33,247 nt of DNA. Origin: an uncultured Bacteroidota bacterium (GTDB lineage Bacteria > Bacteroidota > Bacteroidia > B-17B0 > Aurantibacillaceae). The stretch is taken from positions 1 to 33,247 of the forward strand of contig CALMMX010000152.1 of NCBI GenBank assembly GCA_937868545.1, in the 5' to 3' direction. Each line of letters opens with the position of its first letter. Position 1 is the first letter of the stretch. A program made the position numbers and the translations under genes. This document shows, piece after piece, positions 21,272 through 29,064 of this stretch. The notes beneath the pieces are model-generated. The model saw only the letters and a list, made by a program, of their open reading frames with translations. It was not told the DNA's origin and did not search any database.

Positions 21272-21302
21272 TTTACTAACTACTTGTATTTATACTTATT
21301 GA

Positions 21303-21333
21303 AGCTATCCGTAATAAACGGATGGCTTTTTTT
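21303..21333 (+). terminator. rpmH terminator
   Basis: AGCTATCCGT (21303-21312) pairs with ACGGATGGCT (21318-21327) through nine Watson-Crick pairs and one G-U pair, with an AATAA loop. A run of seven T follows. It lies 31 bases after the rpmH stop and just before the next gene. Confidence 0.93.
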
Positions 21334-21364
21334 GTTATATTTACTTAAAACAAACCCAATTATT

Positions 21365-24361
21365 ATGCATAAAAAGATACTTCTACTTCTTCTTTTGCCC
21401 TTATTTAGCATTTCCCAAACTCAATCCATAATACAAGAACAAAGTTCTCATTACAAAAGCTACAATTTTGCATCAGATGCTAGTTGGGACAGCTTATTAA
21501 TGATTGAGAACAATACAACTACAAGAACATTAAGAACAAGTGCTGCACCTACTGCTAGTTGCAATTTAACTAAGCAAGTTTATGGCTGGCACCCATACTG
21601 GAGTGGGAGTGTTTATACAAGCTATGATTGGAGCATGATAAGCGAGTTTTGTTATTTTGATTACTCGGTAAGTCCAACTACAGGAAACAACACAAACACC
21701 TCATTTGTTTGGTCTACAAGCCCTGCTGTTACTGCAGCTCTTAGTCATAGTGTTAATGTACATTTTTGTGCAACCATGTTTAGTGGGCACTCTACCTTTT
21801 GGGCAAGCACAACCGCACAAAACAACTTTATTACAAATGCCATAAGCTTACTAAATAGTAGAGGTGGCAAAGGTATAAATATCGATTTTGAAGGCATGGG
21901 CTCATCCGACAGAGTTCCATTTAAAAACTTTATGATTAATTTGTGTAATCAAGTACATGCAGCTAATCCAAATTATAAAGTAACCATGGCTTTATATGCG
22001 GTAGATTGGAGCTCAACCTTTGACATGCCAGCATTAAATGCAGTGGTAGATAATTTTATAATAATGGGTTACGATTACTATTATTCTGGATCAGCGCAAG
22101 CTGGACCAGAAGCTCCACTCTATAATTTTCAAACTACCTACAATTATACATTATCAAAATCTATTACATACTATCTTAATTTAGGAGCCACAAAATCAAA
22201 ATTATTATTAGGATTACCGTGGTATGGCCGCGAATGGGAAACAGTGGGAGCTACAGCACCAAGCAGCACTACGGGAGGTTTTACATCTTCAAGAACCTAC
22301 TCTTATGTAAGAAACAATCCATCAATTTATTCTGCCACTGCAAAAAAATGGGAGGCAAATAGTTTTAATTCTTATTACTCTTTTCTTAGTGGTGGTGCTA
22401 ACAGACAATGTTTTATTGATGATGCCTACAGCATGAGAAGAAAATTTGATATGGTAAATCAAAGAGGATTGGGGGGAATTGGCATTTGGGCCTTGGGTTA
22501 TGATGATGGTTATACTGATTATTGGCAAGCTATTAAAGATAAATTTTCTACTTGTGCTACTGTACCTTGTACTGATAGTATTTACGATATGGGTGGACCA
22601 ACACGAAATTATTATGACAACGAAAATTATGCCTACACCATTTCGCCAACAGGGGCTAGTAAAGTAAGATTGTCTTTTAGTCAGTTTGATTTATTAGGTA
22701 GTGGTGACACCTTATTTTTATACGATGGTACATCTATTACTGCTCCCATAATTGGGGCTTATACAGGAACTACTAGTCCTGGCATTATCAATTCAACTGG
22801 AGCATCATTAACTGTTCGTTTTAAATCTAATGCAAGTGTTGTAAGGCCAGGTTTTAAAGCCATTTGGAATTGCATAAGTGATATTACTAGTCCTACAACC
22901 TTAGTAAATCCAATAGCTGGTTGGATTACCCAAGATTTTTCATCGAGCTATACAGACATAGATAACTCAGGTGGTGTAGGAATTGAAAAAAGTTATTACC
23001 AACCAACCTATTTTAATGGAACTGAGTGGAGAGCAAATGGCCTACGAGGTTTTTTTAATGATGACTTTAGTACAAGTGCTATAAGTAGCGATTGGACAAA
23101 TGCCACTGGTGTTTGGAGCAATGTAACTGGAGCATTAAATCAAACAGACGAAGCAAATTCAAACACAAATTTATATGCAACGGTAACACAAAGTTTATCA
23201 AATGCGTATTTGTACAATTTTAAAGGAACAATAAGCGGTACTGGAACAAACCGAAGAGGTGGAATTCACATCTTTTCTGATTCGCCTTCATTAACTAATA
23301 GAGGGAACAGCTACTTAATTTGGATGAGACCAGATAACGGTACTATTGAATTATACGAAACCATATCTAATGTATTATATGTTGTTAAAACAGTAACATA
23401 CACCGTTTTACCAAATACAGTATACGATTATAAAATTTCTTACGATAAAACAAGTGGCGAAGTAAAACTTTGGATTAACGATGTGTTTGTTTCATCATGG
23501 ATAGATGCAAGTCCGTTGACAAGTGCAACTGGCGTTTCGTTTAGAAGTGGTAATAGTAAATTTATTGTTGACGATTTTAAAGTATTTAGATCAAGAGGAA
23601 CTACATCAACCATATTGGTAGGTAGCGCCACCACTAACGATTTATTAAAAGAAAATGTAAGCCCTACTACTCCATCAGGTAAAATAAATAGTATTACTAA
23701 TGATTTAGCAAATAACATCTCATTAATAAATTCAACACTATTAGATATTGATTGGACTAAGCCTATTAAATCTACCTTAATAAAAGATGGAACAGCAAGT
23801 GATATTGATACAACCTATATTGCTACTCAACTTGATTTAAATTACACGGTTGCAAAAGACACCAACTCGGGAGTAACAAACTATTTTTATGCAATAGGAA
23901 CTACAGCAGGTGCAAAGGATATTACAAACTGGACATCAAACGGTTTATTAACTAATGCTACCCAAACAGGTTTGTCATTAGTAATGAGTCAAAAATATTA
24001 CATTATGGTAAAATGTATAAATGGCGCAGGTTTAATGAGTGATAGCACAGTAAGCGATGGCGTATTAAATTTGGGCTTAATAGGACTTGAAGAAAATAAT
24101 ATATTAAATAGTTTAAATGTATTTCCTAACCCAACTAATAACCATGCAACCATTAGCATTATTGGAACTAGTAATGAAAACGTTAGCTACCAATTGCTCA
24201 ATGAACAAGGTAAACTAATTGAGAAAAAAGATCTAATAATAAGTGCGGGTTTAAATACCCTTGAAATAAAACCACTAGAACTAAACTTAAGCAAAGGCGT
24301 TTATTTTATTAAGCTTACTAGTGCTAAGGGAACTATTTCAAAAAAATTAATTATAAATTAA
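21365..24361 (+). CDS. Secreted GH18-like glycosidase with CUB and lectin-like domains, T9SS type A
   Basis: A 998-residue secreted protein. The ATG at 21365 starts the signal peptide MHKKILLLLLLPLFSISQ; an upstream in-frame start would lie in the rpmH terminator. Residues about 66-390 are a GH18 (chitinase-like) barrel: YGWHPYWSG, the beta-4 motif GKGINIDFEG, MALYAVDW, NFIIMGYDYYY, LLLGLPWYGREW and GIGIWALGYDDG. The catalytic Glu is E176 with D174 present, but the outer acidic positions of DxxDxDxE read K169 and N172. A CUB domain follows (about 397-503), then a lectin/LamG-like region (about 566-750) and a type A sorting domain from about 917 (VFPNPTNNHATISI, KGVYFIKLTS). It probably acts on chitin or peptidoglycan-like glycans at the surface or outside the cell. 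Confidence 0.9.
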   Translation: MHKKILLLLLLPLFSISQTQSIIQEQSSHYKSYNFASDASWDSLLMIENNTTTRTLRTSAAPTASCNLTKQVYGWHPYWSGSVYTSYDWSMISEFCYFDYSVSPTTGNNTNTSFVWSTSPAVTAALSHSVNVHFCATMFSGHSTFWASTTAQNNFITNAISLLNSRGGKGINIDFEGMGSSDRVPFKNFMINLCNQVHAANPNYKVTMALYAVDWSSTFDMPALNAVVDNFIIMGYDYYYSGSAQAGPEAPLYNFQTTYNYTLSKSITYYLNLGATKSKLLLGLPWYGREWETVGATAPSSTTGGFTSSRTYSYVRNNPSIYSATAKKWEANSFNSYYSFLSGGANRQCFIDDAYSMRRKFDMVNQRGLGGIGIWALGYDDGYTDYWQAIKDKFSTCATVPCTDSIYDMGGPTRNYYDNENYAYTISPTGASKVRLSFSQFDLLGSGDTLFLYDGTSITAPIIGAYTGTTSPGIINSTGASLTVRFKSNASVVRPGFKAIWNCISDITSPTTLVNPIAGWITQDFSSSYTDIDNSGGVGIEKSYYQPTYFNGTEWRANGLRGFFNDDFSTSAISSDWTNATGVWSNVTGALNQTDEANSNTNLYATVTQSLSNAYLYNFKGTISGTGTNRRGGIHIFSDSPSLTNRGNSYLIWMRPDNGTIELYETISNVLYVVKTVTYTVLPNTVYDYKISYDKTSGEVKLWINDVFVSSWIDASPLTSATGVSFRSGNSKFIVDDFKVFRSRGTTSTILVGSATTNDLLKENVSPTTPSGKINSITNDLANNISLINSTLLDIDWTKPIKSTLIKDGTASDIDTTYIATQLDLNYTVAKDTNSGVTNYFYAIGTTAGAKDITNWTSNGLLTNATQTGLSLVMSQKYYIMVKCINGAGLMSDSTVSDGVLNLGLIGLEENNILNSLNVFPNPTNNHATISIIGTSNENVSYQLLNEQGKLIEKKDLIISAGLNTLEIKPLELNLSKGVYFIKLTSAKGTISKKLIIN

Positions 24362-24364
24362 TAT

Positions 24365-25289
24365 ATGAGCTTTTCAAAAATTACATTTACTGCTATACTC
24401 TTATTTATATTTACCAATGTGTTTTCTCAAAACATGGGTAATTTGCATGTACAAATTACATTAGATAATCAAAATGCATACACCAATAAATACATCAAAT
24501 TAACACTGTTAAAAAAAGATACTGTTTACACCAAACATTTTACTTCAAATGAAAACATAGTATGGAATTTAGATTCTATTCCTGTAGGAACGTATAACTT
24601 AAATGTGAACGTTGACAGTAATACAATTGCTAACTATCATGGACTAACCATAGAAAATAATAAAAAAAATAGTTATTACTATCATATGGAAAGCTCAAAA
24701 TACTCATTACATAAGGATAGTATAAATGATGATGAAAGGGAAAAAGTAGAGTTAACTATGAATGTGTTATACGGCAACAACGATTTTTATGAAACAAACC
24801 GCTACCAAAAAAACGAAATGCTCTCTGGTGAATTTTCGTTTAACATGTACAAGGCCGTTTTAAAACATTATTCGCTTGGCATTAAATATGGCTACCAATA
24901 TGCCAACACTAAGTTTTATAATGATACCACACGCTATTTAGGAAAACAAACACTATAGCTCAAACATTATTAATATAGGCTTTATAAATAGATTTACTTT
25001 TTTCAATAATCAAAAAACACACAATGATGGACTAAAACTGGACATTGGCATTATGTACAATTTCCCACTTTCATTTAAAGAAATAACAAGAGTAACAGAA
25101 AAAACAACACAAATTACCCGACACATTCATAGATACAATGATTTTTCGGCAATTGTAAGATTAGGTTACAAAAACATTGGTTTACAAGCCGAATACAACA
25201 TAACTAATTTTTTACTTATGAAGTATACCGAAATTCCTACACTTAGAGTTGGGTTGGTGTTTTATACTCCAAATATAGCTATGAATTAA
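24365..25289 (+). pseudogene. Frameshifted gene for a secreted/outer-membrane protein
   Basis: The first frame (24365-24958) encodes a signal peptide (MSFSKITFTAILLFIFTNVFSQ), a beta-rich domain (GNLHVQITLDNQ, IPVGTYNLNV) and the start of what looks like a membrane barrel, then stops at TAG 24956. The next frame is open from 24942 and continues as HYSSNIINIGFINRF, LKLDIGIMYNFPLSF and AIVRLGYKNIGLQAEYN to the stop at 25287. Removing one A from the AAACA run near 24947-24952 joins the two into one protein of about 307 residues. So either the gene is inactivated, the base call is wrong, or two fragments are made. It starts four bases after the GH18 gene and may be co-transcribed with it. Family not recognised. 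Confidence 0.75.
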
Positions 25290-25290
25290 A

Positions 25291-25406
25291 ATTCAACCGT
25301 CATTGCGAGGCACGAAGCAATCTCTTGGTTTAATACTAATTTTAAATGTTTTTTCGAGTCGACAGATTGCTTCACTACGTTCGCAATGACGATTAATGAG
25401 AACAAA
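25291..25406. repeat. REP/MITE-like palindromic element, copy A
   Basis: A 116-bp unit identical to 25535-25650. It has inverted ends: CGTCATTGCGAGGCACGAAG with GCAATCT on the left pairs with AGATTGCTTC and TCGCAATGACG on the right, enclosing about 40 AT-rich bases. The CGTCATTGCGA...GCAATCT arm is a recurring intergenic palindrome type in many genomes. No coding capacity is credible. Confidence 0.9.
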
Positions 25407-25438
25407 GTAAATTCAAGGCGAAAAGTAATCTTGAGGAA

Positions 25439-25520
25439 CGTCATTGCGAGCGAAACGCAGTGGAGCGAAGCAATCTCTTACTATTCAAAGATTGCCACGT
25501 CGTGCCTCCTCGCAATGACG
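25439..25520. repeat. REP/MITE-like palindromic element, middle variant
   Basis: It has the same terminal arms (CGTCATTGCGA at 25439 and TCGCAATGACG ending at 25520) and inner GCAATCTC/AGATTGC, but a shorter 11-base centre and different arm inserts: the left arm carries GCGAAACGCAGTGGAGCGAA, the right a complement of GAGGCACGACGTGG. It is a second subtype of the same family placed between two identical copies. Confidence 0.85.
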
Positions 25521-25534
25521 AAAAAACAATTTTT

Positions 25535-25650
25535 ATTCAACCGTCATTGCGAGGCACGAAGCAATCTCTTGGTTTAATACTAATTTTAAATGTTTTTTCG
25601 AGTCGACAGATTGCTTCACTACGTTCGCAATGACGATTAATGAGAACAAA
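25535..25650. repeat. REP/MITE-like palindromic element, copy B
   Basis: Identical over 116 bases to copy A, including the flanking ATTCAAC at the left and ATTAATGAGAACAAA at the right, beyond the palindrome itself. The duplicated unit is therefore larger than the hairpin, which points to a recent segmental duplication. Confidence 0.9.
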
Positions 25651-25947: not shown

Positions 25948-28900
25948 TTGAAAAAAACAATTAATAACTGTATTTATATTTTATTTTGCCTTTGCACATT
26001 TTACAAAAATTATGCGCAAAATAACAATAACTATTACGTTGAAAAAAGACTATACACTTATAAAGACGGGCTTTCTGGAAGAATCGCAAAAAATGTTACT
26101 CAAGATAATAATGGCTATATTTGGATAGTAACCAATAATGGTTTATGTAGATTTGATGGAAAAAAATTTATTTCTTTCACGCAAAAATCACATGGATTAT
26201 ATAGTAATAATATTAATACTATTGTAAGCGACCACAATAATGCAATTATTATATCTTATTTTAATGATAAAACTAACTTTACATATGAACCTGGGCATAT
26301 AGATGTAATTGACATTAATACATTTAAAATAAAAAAATTAAAGGAACATTACGTTAATGTACCTTTTAAAGACAGTGATGTTTTTGAAGTAAGATCGGAT
26401 CCAGATGACACTCAACACGTTTATTTTACATTAAAACCATTAACCAATCTGCAAAACATGGTTTACATTACTTCAAACGTAATGTTGCTTAACAAAAATG
26501 GTCAATTTATAAAACAAACAATAAAACCTACCAAAACAATAAAATTCATAAATAATGGCTCTTCTATACAAGCCATTCTTGAGCCCTATTATACTGGCAT
26601 AAACATGATGGATAAAGCATTTGTTGTTTTAAATGATTCTACCATTATTTCAACCAAAGCAAATTTAGGTTCTGTAAATTATAAAGATGATAAAGGAGGG
26701 TTTTTATTAGATTACGAAAAAGATAAAATTCGAAAGTTCTATTACTTAAAAAACTTTTCAAATCTAAAAGAAATTAGCAAAACAGATACGTCTTTTCCTT
26801 ACTTTACATTTATAAATAGGATGCGCTATTATTACAATAGGTTAAATTTATCTGGTTTAGTTTTCAATAATAACAATTCTATATATTTATTTCAAAAAAA
26901 CAAAGACTTAATACCACTTTTAGACTCTACTGATAAAGAAGAATTTAAAAAAGCGAAAGTTCAATCAGTTTTTAAAGACAACATTGGAAACTATTGGCTA
27001 TCAACAAGTGAAGGACTTCTTAAAATTACAATCACAAAAAATAATTTCCATTTACTTTTTACTAATAAGCAAATCCCTTTTGGATTGAATAATTCTTCTC
27101 GAGGATTTTATAAATATAAAGATACACTACTAGTTGCAACATCAGATTTTATTGGGATTAAAAAACCACATGGAACCAAATTAATTAAAAGCAACAATAA
27201 CTTTGGATTTTGTGAAAGTTCAAATAAACTATGGAGTTCAAGTTCCAATATTCAAACAGTAAATATTCAAACAGAAAAAATTGAAAACAAAAACGCTAAA
27301 TTATTTGGCGAAGTATGGGCTATTTTTCCTTTTAAAACAAATCAATTACTTTTAGGTTGTACCGAAAAACCTTGCATATATAATACCGAATCTAATACAG
27401 TTACTAATATTAATGTTGGTAACTATTCAAGTCCAAATATTACTTACCGCTTTTTAAAAGATAGTCAAAACATATTAATTGTAGCCAATAATGGGATTTA
27501 TACTTTAAACAACCAAGGTAAAATTATTGATTGCTTTAACAAATTTCAAAAAGAAAAAAATAAAAAATTACTTGTAGAAGACATTAATGATTTACATATT
27601 GATAAAGACGGATTGTATTGGATTGCTACAGCATTTAATGGATTATATTGTTGGGACAGAAAAGGCAACACTATTGAATACTTTGGAGTAGACAATGGTT
27701 TTTTATCACTTACTCATTATAGAATTGAAGAAGATGCATTTAATAATTTATGGATAAGTACAGAATTTGGCTTGGCTAAATTCAATAAAAACACCAAACA
27801 AGTTAAAATATACACCGAAAAAGACGGAATACCACACAATGAATTTAATAGAACATCAAGTTTTAAAGATATTGATGGAACACTCTATTTTGGCGGTTTA
27901 AATGGTGTAACTTATTTTAACCCAAAAGATTTTATTGAAAACGAAGGCAACCTAAACTACCCATTTTTAGTAAATAATATAAGCGTTTATAATAGTGACA
28001 CATATTTAATACAAGATGAAACCAATAATTATTTTAAAGAAAAAAACATAACACTTACTGAAAATAAAAAAAATATTTCCATACAAGTCTTGCTGGTGGA
28101 TTTAGAAGATAGAACACACTTATATGCATATCAAATTGCTGGTTTAGAAAAGGAATGGAATTATACAAATGAAGGGATTATCAAATTAAATAATTTACCT
28201 TATGGCAAGTATACTATAAAAATAAAAGCTCAATGTGTAAATGGCTCATGGAATAAAACAGAACTTTTTATTAATTTAAATGTGCCTAAACCATTTTATA
28301 AAACATGGTTGTTTATTATAATTATTGTTGCAATAATTGTAATTACTATCTTTTTAATTATTAAACAACGCATTAAATCATTACAAAAACAAAACCAAAA
28401 ACTTGAACATATTGTTGACGTTAGAACGTTTGAATTAAGAGAATCTTTAGCTGAGCAAATTGCATTATTACAGGAAGTACATCATCGTGTAAAAAACAAT
28501 TTACAGTTTACTGCAGCTATGCTTGAAATGCAACTAGACACAATAAATGACAAAGAAAATTATGAAATTTTAAAAGAAACATCCCGACGTATTAATGCAA
28601 TATCATTAGTACACGAAATGCTTTACAATAAGGAAAAATTAGAATATGTTTCTGTAAAAGAATACTTATTTGAATTAATAGACAAGCTAAAAGAATTAAT
28701 TTATGATACTGAAGAAAAAATTAAATTTGAAACAGAAATTGATGATGTAAAATTTAACATTACAAATTGTGTTGCAATTGGGATGATAACTTCAGAAATT
28801 ATCAGTAACACAATTAAATATGCCTTTAACGAATCAACTAATCCTTTAATTACAATCAAATTAAGTGTCAACAACGATCAAAAATCACTACTCTATTCAA

Positions 28901-29064
28901 TTGCAGATAATGGAAAAGGAATGCCTGAAACTATAGAGAAAAAAGGACTTGGATTGCGATTAATAGATATTTTTTCGAGGCAAATGGGCGCCAGTTACGA
29001 AATGAAAAATAATAATGGTTTATTATATACATTTAAAATTCCTTATACACTAAATGAAAACTAA
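25948..29064 (+). CDS. Two-component propeller sensor histidine kinase (HisKA_2)
   Basis: A 1038-residue membrane sensor kinase. A TTG start at 25948 leads directly into a signal peptide (KKTINNCIYILFCLCTFYKNYAQ). The periplasmic part (about 30-720) has two-component-regulator-propeller repeats such as VTQDNNGYIWIVTNNGLCRFDG, IGNYWLSTSEGLLKI and DKDGLYWIATAFNGLYCW. A Y_Y_Y domain (YAYQIAGLEKEWNYTNEG) follows, then one transmembrane helix (about 785-808) and a cytoplasmic HisKA_2 domain with phosphoacceptor His at 845 (EVHHRVKNNLQ). The ATPase domain has EIISNTIKYAF (N box) and DNGKGMP. There is no fused receiver; the signal passes to the LytTR regulator whose gene overlaps it by 11 bases. The stimulus is unknown. 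Confidence 0.93.
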   Translation: MKKTINNCIYILFCLCTFYKNYAQNNNNYYVEKRLYTYKDGLSGRIAKNVTQDNNGYIWIVTNNGLCRFDGKKFISFTQKSHGLYSNNINTIVSDHNNAIIISYFNDKTNFTYEPGHIDVIDINTFKIKKLKEHYVNVPFKDSDVFEVRSDPDDTQHVYFTLKPLTNLQNMVYITSNVMLLNKNGQFIKQTIKPTKTIKFINNGSSIQAILEPYYTGINMMDKAFVVLNDSTIISTKANLGSVNYKDDKGGFLLDYEKDKIRKFYYLKNFSNLKEISKTDTSFPYFTFINRMRYYYNRLNLSGLVFNNNNSIYLFQKNKDLIPLLDSTDKEEFKKAKVQSVFKDNIGNYWLSTSEGLLKITITKNNFHLLFTNKQIPFGLNNSSRGFYKYKDTLLVATSDFIGIKKPHGTKLIKSNNNFGFCESSNKLWSSSSNIQTVNIQTEKIENKNAKLFGEVWAIFPFKTNQLLLGCTEKPCIYNTESNTVTNINVGNYSSPNITYRFLKDSQNILIVANNGIYTLNNQGKIIDCFNKFQKEKNKKLLVEDINDLHIDKDGLYWIATAFNGLYCWDRKGNTIEYFGVDNGFLSLTHYRIEEDAFNNLWISTEFGLAKFNKNTKQVKIYTEKDGIPHNEFNRTSSFKDIDGTLYFGGLNGVTYFNPKDFIENEGNLNYPFLVNNISVYNSDTYLIQDETNNYFKEKNITLTENKKNISIQVLLVDLEDRTHLYAYQIAGLEKEWNYTNEGIIKLNNLPYGKYTIKIKAQCVNGSWNKTELFINLNVPKPFYKTWLFIIIIVAIIVITIFLIIKQRIKSLQKQNQKLEHIVDVRTFELRESLAEQIALLQEVHHRVKNNLQFTAAMLEMQLDTINDKENYEILKETSRRINAISLVHEMLYNKEKLEYVSVKEYLFELIDKLKELIYDTEEKIKFETEIDDVKFNITNCVAIGMITSEIISNTIKYAFNESTNPLITIKLSVNNDQKSLLYSIADNGKGMPETIEKKGLGLRLIDIFSRQMGASYEMKNNNGLLYTFKIPYTLNEN

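Follow-up and report, generated by a model that had tools for sequence, protein, structure and literature searches.

The BIMEs of E. coli are mosaics of palindromic units, as is the array described here, and they are of the GTAG type, with sequences otherwise unlike it. In the CGTC superfamily of REPs, the tag CGTC (or TGTC/CCTC) stands at one end of the palindromic unit (Di Nocera et al. 2013, PMC3733652). In that paper, no CGTC repeat was found beside a transposase gene, and the authors left open what moves these repeats. The same source treats the REPINs of Bertels and Rainey as GTAG-type and places the Rickettsia repeats RPE-4 and RPE-6 under CGTC (PMC3733652). Ordered REPIN clusters are described in the original report as tandem near-identical REPINs, flanks included (Bertels and Rainey 2011, PMC3116915).

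The window analysed here is the whole of contig C152 (33,247 nucleotides, G+C 30.7%), which comes from a 3.85-Mb, 384-contig, 82.9%-complete draft genome of an uncultured Bacteroidota bacterium. A sequence-only reading of the window had described three palindromic REP-like elements with a distinct subtype, C, between A and B, and the coordinates, the folds and the inverted-repeat structure all agree with this description. The elements, with bounds counted from CGTC to GACG, and their neighbours are as follows:

24365 to 25289, plus strand: upstream gene in two frames, 24365–24958 and then a second frame to the TAA at 25287–25289.
25291 to 25534, plus strand: 244-bp composite unit (A + spacer + C + spacer), present in 1.5 copies and aligning to contig C307.
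25298 to 25391, no strand assigned: element A, a tags-out inverted doublet of two CGTC units; DNA fold z −4.97, RNA fold z −5.91.
25298 to 25323, plus strand: unit A-left, CGTC-ATTGC-GAGGCACGAA-GCAAT-CT.
25364 to 25391, minus strand: unit A-right, CGTC-ATTGC-GAACGTAGTGAA-GCAAT-CT.
25439 to 25520, no strand assigned: element C, of a different subtype, a doublet of two longer-loop units; DNA fold z −4.25, RNA fold z −5.13.
25439 to 25476, plus strand: unit C-left, loop GAGCGAAACGCAGTGGAGCGAA.
25490 to 25520, minus strand: unit C-right, loop GAGGAGGCACGACGTG; the matching arm at contig C307 has a 24-base insert with a palindrome.
25542 to 25635, no strand assigned: element B, a copy of A; identity over 116 bp including the flanks, 25535–25650.
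25948 to 29064, plus strand: downstream gene, a regulator-propeller sensor histidine kinase.

A, C and B are REPIN-like doublets of CGTC-tagged REPs, each made of two units that stand face to face with the tags outward. Every arm follows one plan, i.e., CGTC-ATTGC-GA, a variable upper stem, GAA (or GTG) and GCAAT-CT, in which the middle varies around a fixed tag and lower stem. The modular arms with shared outer and inner pieces that had been proposed for the array are borne out, since GTCATTGCGA and GCAATC are present in 6 of 6 window arms, with the C of CGTC preceding each GTCATTGCGA. All six arms start with CGTC and contain the 5-bp lower stem ATTGC/GCAAT, followed by the tail CT; by this tag and the A/T start of the stem, found in 6/6 arms, the window units belong to the CGTC REP superfamily. 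The 10–22 bases that separate ATTGC from GCAAT are partly paired, mismatches included. Folded as DNA with a few flanking bases included, the elements reach z values of −5.0 (A, B) and −4.3 (C), and folded as RNA, −5.9 (A) and −5.1 (C), with 0 of 200 dinucleotide shuffles folding as stably in each case. Single arms folded as RNA showed no clear gain over shuffles (4 arms, z −1.8 to +0.1). No family reached its gathering score in an Rfam search of the window, and the array is absent from the list given by Tandem Repeats Finder at default score.

The middle of the arm was analysed through 205 distinct loops (inserts) gathered across loci, 179 of which were used and 26 left out by length or 3′ end. 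Over all loci, upper-stem pairs 1–5 are Watson–Crick in 169/179, 108/178, 51/151, 96/148 and 86/125 loops, compared with shuffle means of 125, 47, 29, 42 and 39, respectively. For the GTDB loci only (123 of 142 loops used), the in-register counts are 118/123, 59/111, 37/107, 66/94 and 42/62, each reached in 0 of 500 shuffles. When the pairing is shifted by one base at the GTDB loci, 8 of the 9 testable pairings are no higher than shuffles, the exception being pair 3 at shift +1 (26/107 vs. 14.9). The variable middle is a second stem, in which pairing is kept while the sequence changes, i.e., the changes are compensatory. The earlier statement that the middle pieces swap therefore stands as to the variable middle, whereas the pairing statistics give its nature as a compensating upper stem. 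Quasi-palindrome correction during replication is an alternative source of stem complementarity that needs no selection, and this counts against the explanation that we favour below.

Elements A and B are identical at 116 of 116 bases, flanks included (25291–25406 and 25535–25650), just as had been read from the letters, and the identity takes in another 7 bases to the left of the elements and 15 to their right. A repeat finder reports the A/B pair as 123 nt at 98% with a spacing of 244, and A-C-B amounts to 1.5 copies of the 244-bp unit, with B opening the second copy. The reverse strand of contig C307 carries a diverged A+C unit: of 240 aligned bases, 215 are identical and 25 mismatched. There are also 25 gap positions, 24 of them due to a single insert in C's right arm, within which lies the palindrome TTCACT-GA-GCTTGTC-GA-AGTGAA. 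Because A and B share 7 + 15 flank bases and C307 carries the same A+C unit, and because A is identical to B and only 94% alike to its C307 counterpart, a local duplication, later than the composite unit itself, is the most likely origin of B, rather than a fresh insertion. An insertion hotspot, which had also been suggested, is rejected for A and B in view of the shared flanks and the second composite array on C307, both of which point to segmental duplication of a composite unit instead. The window array is ordinary for REP-type repeats. A similar but longer array of tandem heterodimeric doublets, with steps mostly of 83–85 bp, runs over 1.4 kb at locus L291 (contig C19 of genome G437).

The 3.85-Mb draft holds 20 copies of GTCATTGCGA vs. 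2 of the backward-read pattern. For the two-part unit GTCATTGCGA..GCAATC, the count is 17 vs. 0, with 6 copies in the window and the other 11 spread over nine more contigs; thus neither the motif nor the unit is a matter of chance. The expectation that the genome holds further copies is confirmed by these 11 units, which are not random hairpins. In a survey of the phylum, the unit was found in 79 of 395 genomes, at 1 to 417 copies, and the backward control gave one match in each of 3 genomes. The tags-out doublet occurs in at least 119 stretches of GTDB genomes. Among the 80 matches listed, the lineages with the doublet presumably include, by title, Chloroflexota, Bacteroidota, Pseudomonadota, Desulfobacterota, Omnitrophota and Planctomycetota; we take further lineages among the matches listed to be Cyanobacteriota with Melainabacteria, Patescibacteria, Elusimicrobiota, Ignavibacteria, Zixibacteria and Abyssobacteria. 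Isolates with the doublet belong to Bacteroidota and Pseudomonadota, and about ten more phylum-level lineages are represented only by records whose titles suggest metagenome bins, which may include stray contigs. A literature search for CGTCATTGCGAG and for 9- to 12-mers, with the matching papers listed for the 11- to 12-mers judged by title, found no published description of the repeat sequence.

Viral contigs carry the doublet as well, in 22 stretches tags-out, 7 tags-in and 13 head-to-tail, by patterns of unequal strictness (25, 28 and 28 fixed bases, respectively); the backward-read and rearranged control patterns gave 0 and 0. Two related viral contigs, IMGVR_UViG_3300022552_000049 (loci L266 and L269) and IMGVR_UViG_3300010330_000057 (L255), carry 24 and 11 CGTC units, most of which lie clear of the larger ORFs; by eye, the ORFs of both contigs look like phage structural genes. 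Their doublet matches number 7 + 7 (L266 + L269) and 6 (L255), vs. 1–2 for other viral stretches, and at megablast sensitivity no relative of the repeat-rich contig of L255 was found among phage records.

The count of 417 units belongs to G002, a relative of the same class assembled as one contig of 3,925,976 bases. It gives 117 doublet matches with both strands counted, hence fewer distinct doublets, which commonly consist of a 25-base unit and a 31-base unit. As far as CGTC/GACG, no flank column of these doublets exceeds ~0.5 bit; within the element, the first 11 bases are set by the search pattern. Many ends in G002 are stuttered, with up to four CGTCATTGCGAG motifs; at loci L276–L283, the stutter runs outward, CGTCATTGCGAG plus a short, sometimes flank-like spacer being repeated 1–3 times on one or both sides. 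A second repeat type, TGTC-ATCCT (or ATGCT)-GA.., is nested centrally in seven long ATTGC doublets of G002, as six whole inner doublets and one shortened (e.g., L276:17021–17219, L277:5711–5858, L280:2931–3078 and others). In the genus of G002, doublets are found in 12 of 60 genomes, and G359 is without any unit. One doublet of G396 is identical over 72 bases to a doublet of G002, the two being different species of one genus. A doublet common to genomes G439 and G415 differs between them at one base, its flanks beyond CGTC being alike too, and three G439/G415 doublets (L284, L305, L307) share sequence past CGTC; therefore, the tag is not a clean boundary in all copies. No filled site could be paired with its empty counterpart, the genus-mates of G002 being too distant, at 63–77% identity over most matched stretches.

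The array begins 9 nt past the stop of the upstream gene, directly after a frameshifted gene as had been claimed; the frame change is seen near 24950 and may be either a real frameshift or an error of the draft assembly. Neither part of this gene has a match in Pfam (the second part taken as 24960–25286), nor does the first part in NCBIfam. A GH18/T9SS-tail gene at 21284–24361 precedes it. With the upstream and downstream genes both on the plus strand, the array sits between unidirectional genes. By crude ORF calls, the 12 clusters of the 10-base motif in the draft comprise 5 in unidirectional, 4 in convergent and 0 in divergent gaps; of the rest, 1 falls within an ORF and 2 lie at a contig edge. 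One unit on contig C40 (L006:1501–1535) lies within a long ORF, whose start was perhaps called too far upstream. Eight 20-kb stretches of G002 hold 25 clusters (3 at edges, 1 inside an ORF); of the 21 placed, 12 are convergent, 9 unidirectional and 0 divergent, compared with 18, 37 and 19 among all gaps of at least 60 bases. Divergent gaps are thus avoided in this one relative. The bias is weaker at the GTDB loci, where 112 placed clusters divide into 82 unidirectional, 21 convergent and 9 divergent (290, 55 and 71 among 416 gaps), and where, of 152 clusters, 23 are inside crude ORFs and 17 at edges.

It had been asked whether the 116-bp unit occurs elsewhere with target duplications. A diverged copy of the 244-bp unit lies on C307, as noted above, and no abutting direct repeat of at least 5 bases was found in 140 doublet readings (some overlapping), namely, 23 from genus-mates (many from one tandem array), 36 from G002 and 81 from GTDB loci. 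Flanking matches of 4 bases were observed in 2 of 36 readings in G002 vs. 0.26 expected (5 of 300 shuffles) and in 2 of 81 at the GTDB loci vs. 0.57 expected (35 of 300 shuffles); a short target duplication of fewer than 5 bases is possible.

We consider it likely that REPIN-like CGTC doublets spread as hairpins and that an A+C unit was then duplicated locally to give A-C-B. The CGTC doublets would fold into single-stranded hairpins, and it is as doublets, for the most part bounded by the CGTC tag, that the family would have spread through this genome and many others, probably by a processing of hairpin single strands that leaves no target duplication. At the window site, an A doublet and a C doublet would have come to adjoin, and slippage or unequal crossing-over would then have copied part of the resulting 244-bp A+C unit next to itself, which gave A-C-B. 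The array would now lie in the 3′ flank of the gene as a probably transcribed hairpin. The unit structure, the compensatory upper stems, the doublet arrangement, the other copies, the second composite array, the lack of abutting direct repeats of at least 5 bases and the avoidance of divergent gaps in one relative are what we observed; past mobility by hairpin processing, the local origin of B and the transcription of the array are what we infer.

As for the mover, the sequence-only reading had proposed mobilisation in trans by a REP-associated transposase. That the bacterium's own REP-associated tyrosine transposase (RAYT) moves the CGTC doublets in this way, as for GTAG REPs, is overall unproven and, in our judgement, rather doubtful. 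RAYT-like genes are present in the draft, with NF047646 scores that fall short, narrowly or clearly, of the curated cut-off of 80 (79.6 bits on C117, 70.9 on C83, 60.2 on C270, and an 80-residue fragment on C34), and the lack of target duplication fits HUH chemistry. In addition, PF01797 matches 66 of 79 unit-bearing genomes vs. 205 of the 316 others (Fisher p 0.001, odds ratio 2.7, without adjustment for genome size or relatedness). With the threshold set at 3, 5, 10 and 20 units, the odds ratio is 2.2–3.2, with p of 0.015, 0.09, 0.29 and 0.44 as the numbers fall (14 of 17 genomes matched at ≥10 units, 6 of 7 at ≥20), so the association weakens with copy number in significance only, not in strength. 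PF01797 missed the RAYT in G186 and two of the draft's own genes; the survey table therefore undercounts, and no single search proves absence. However, GTCATTGCGA is absent from the flanks (≤1.5 kb) of 31 of 31 Y1 loci, 13 of which come from genomes with the unit, and the 8-mer TCATTGCG is found in 2 of the 31. No motif is seen in the available flanks of three of the own RAYT-like genes, but two of these lie near contig ends in a draft that is 83% complete, where a motif could escape. Moreover, the C270 gene and its relatives in G198 and G186 carry another palindrome, ACC..CAGGTTT..AAACCTG..GGT, which turned up in 6 of 42 Y1-locus records, at 3 distinct places and at none of the 30 survey loci, vs. 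1 of 292 other records. At C270, ACCTGTCAGGTTTTAAAACCTGACAGGT lies ~200 bases upstream of the RAYT-like gene (a 181-codon open frame), and this ACCTGTCAGGT palindrome may be the cognate repeat of this RAYT subfamily. Its sites are L004:2088–2129 (contig C270 of the draft), L324:1440–3333 and L325:1807–1835; in G186, it stands in frame inside the RAYT gene. Finally, G002, with its 417 units, was searched in three ways, each without a match: PF01797 (E ≤ 0.001), the own RAYT protein (E ≤ 1) and NF047646 (E ≤ 10). Its genus-mate G437 (29 doublet matches) has a RAYT-like gene at 47 bits. An unlikely reading that would account for G002 is that the near-invariant CGTC-ATTGC-GA..GAA-GCAAT hairpin, in about a dozen phylum-level lineages, was spread by a broad activity other than a RAYT/IS200 transposase, with sister units (ATCCT/AGGAT, TTCACT/AGTGAA) sharing the GA..GA loop as a recognition feature; these lower stems are found nested in the ATTGC doublets of G002 and inside the C-type arm on C307, respectively. 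Such an activity, if real, would explain 417 units in a single-contig genome without a detectable Y1 transposase.

There are two further readings. If the elements were non-mobile, i.e., RNA regulatory or mRNA-end hairpins that selection maintains at the 3′ ends of genes and that multiply by gene conversion and duplication, the 3′-flank bias in G002 and in the draft, the strong folding of the doublets as RNA and the evident local duplications would all be in keeping. This reading is nevertheless quite unlikely given the 417 units of G002 against none in its genus-mate G359, the identical 72-bp doublet in G002 and G396, the patchy distribution over 79 of 395 genomes and the lack of any terminator-like site in the 1.2 kb around the array. 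Movement as MITEs by a DDE transposase, whose insertion sequence would end in CGTCATTGCGA, we hold to be very unlikely. The doublets do have terminal inverted repeats of at least 11 bases and are mostly 66–100 bp long, and the 4-base flanking matches in G002 are slightly in excess, but the 140 doublet readings showed no longer abutting repeat. Among the loci analysed, just 4 consecutive outward-closing motif pairs lie 400–3500 bp apart, and by eye none of the longest ORFs inside them is transposase-like, although the loci are short and larger parents could escape. The missing mover in G002 is worth testing, as this is a single-contig genome with no detectable RAYT; together with a RAYT subfamily that has a different flanking palindrome, it makes the question of the CGTC mover directly testable at the bench.

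The kind of repeat seen here is already known (REP/REPIN), and it compares with the described systems as follows. Like the CGTC-tagged REPs (PMC3733652), the window units have a terminal CGTC (CGTC or TGTC in the former), a stem that opens with A and T and frequent inverted dimers; they also lie mostly beside gene ends and have no linked transposase gene, which here refers to the Y1 class alone (0 of 31 loci with GTCATTGCGA). The four named CGTC families have stems of 8–9 bp, loops of 4–5 bp and a tail that is mostly CCA (PMC3733652), whereas in the window unit a lower stem of 5 bp (ATTGC/GCAAT) is followed by an internal loop, GA..GAA, and an upper stem that varies, and the tail is CT. By the text and table of that source, the unit is thus a variant of the CGTC type that differs from all four named families in its stem, its loop and its tail. 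The Rickettsia RPE-4, -6 and -7 (R. japonica, PMC3767692) resemble it as ATGAC-rich palindromes, and one Rickettsia rhipicephali record (L203) matches the doublet pattern; the RPEs differ in that they are often within genes (PMC3767692). With the REPINs of Bertels and Rainey (PMC3116915), the window elements share the hairpin-forming inverted doublet as the repeated unit, the tandem clusters with flanks and the compensatory changes, whereas the known REPINs lie near their RAYT genes, a linkage that was not found here in the gene flanks covered.
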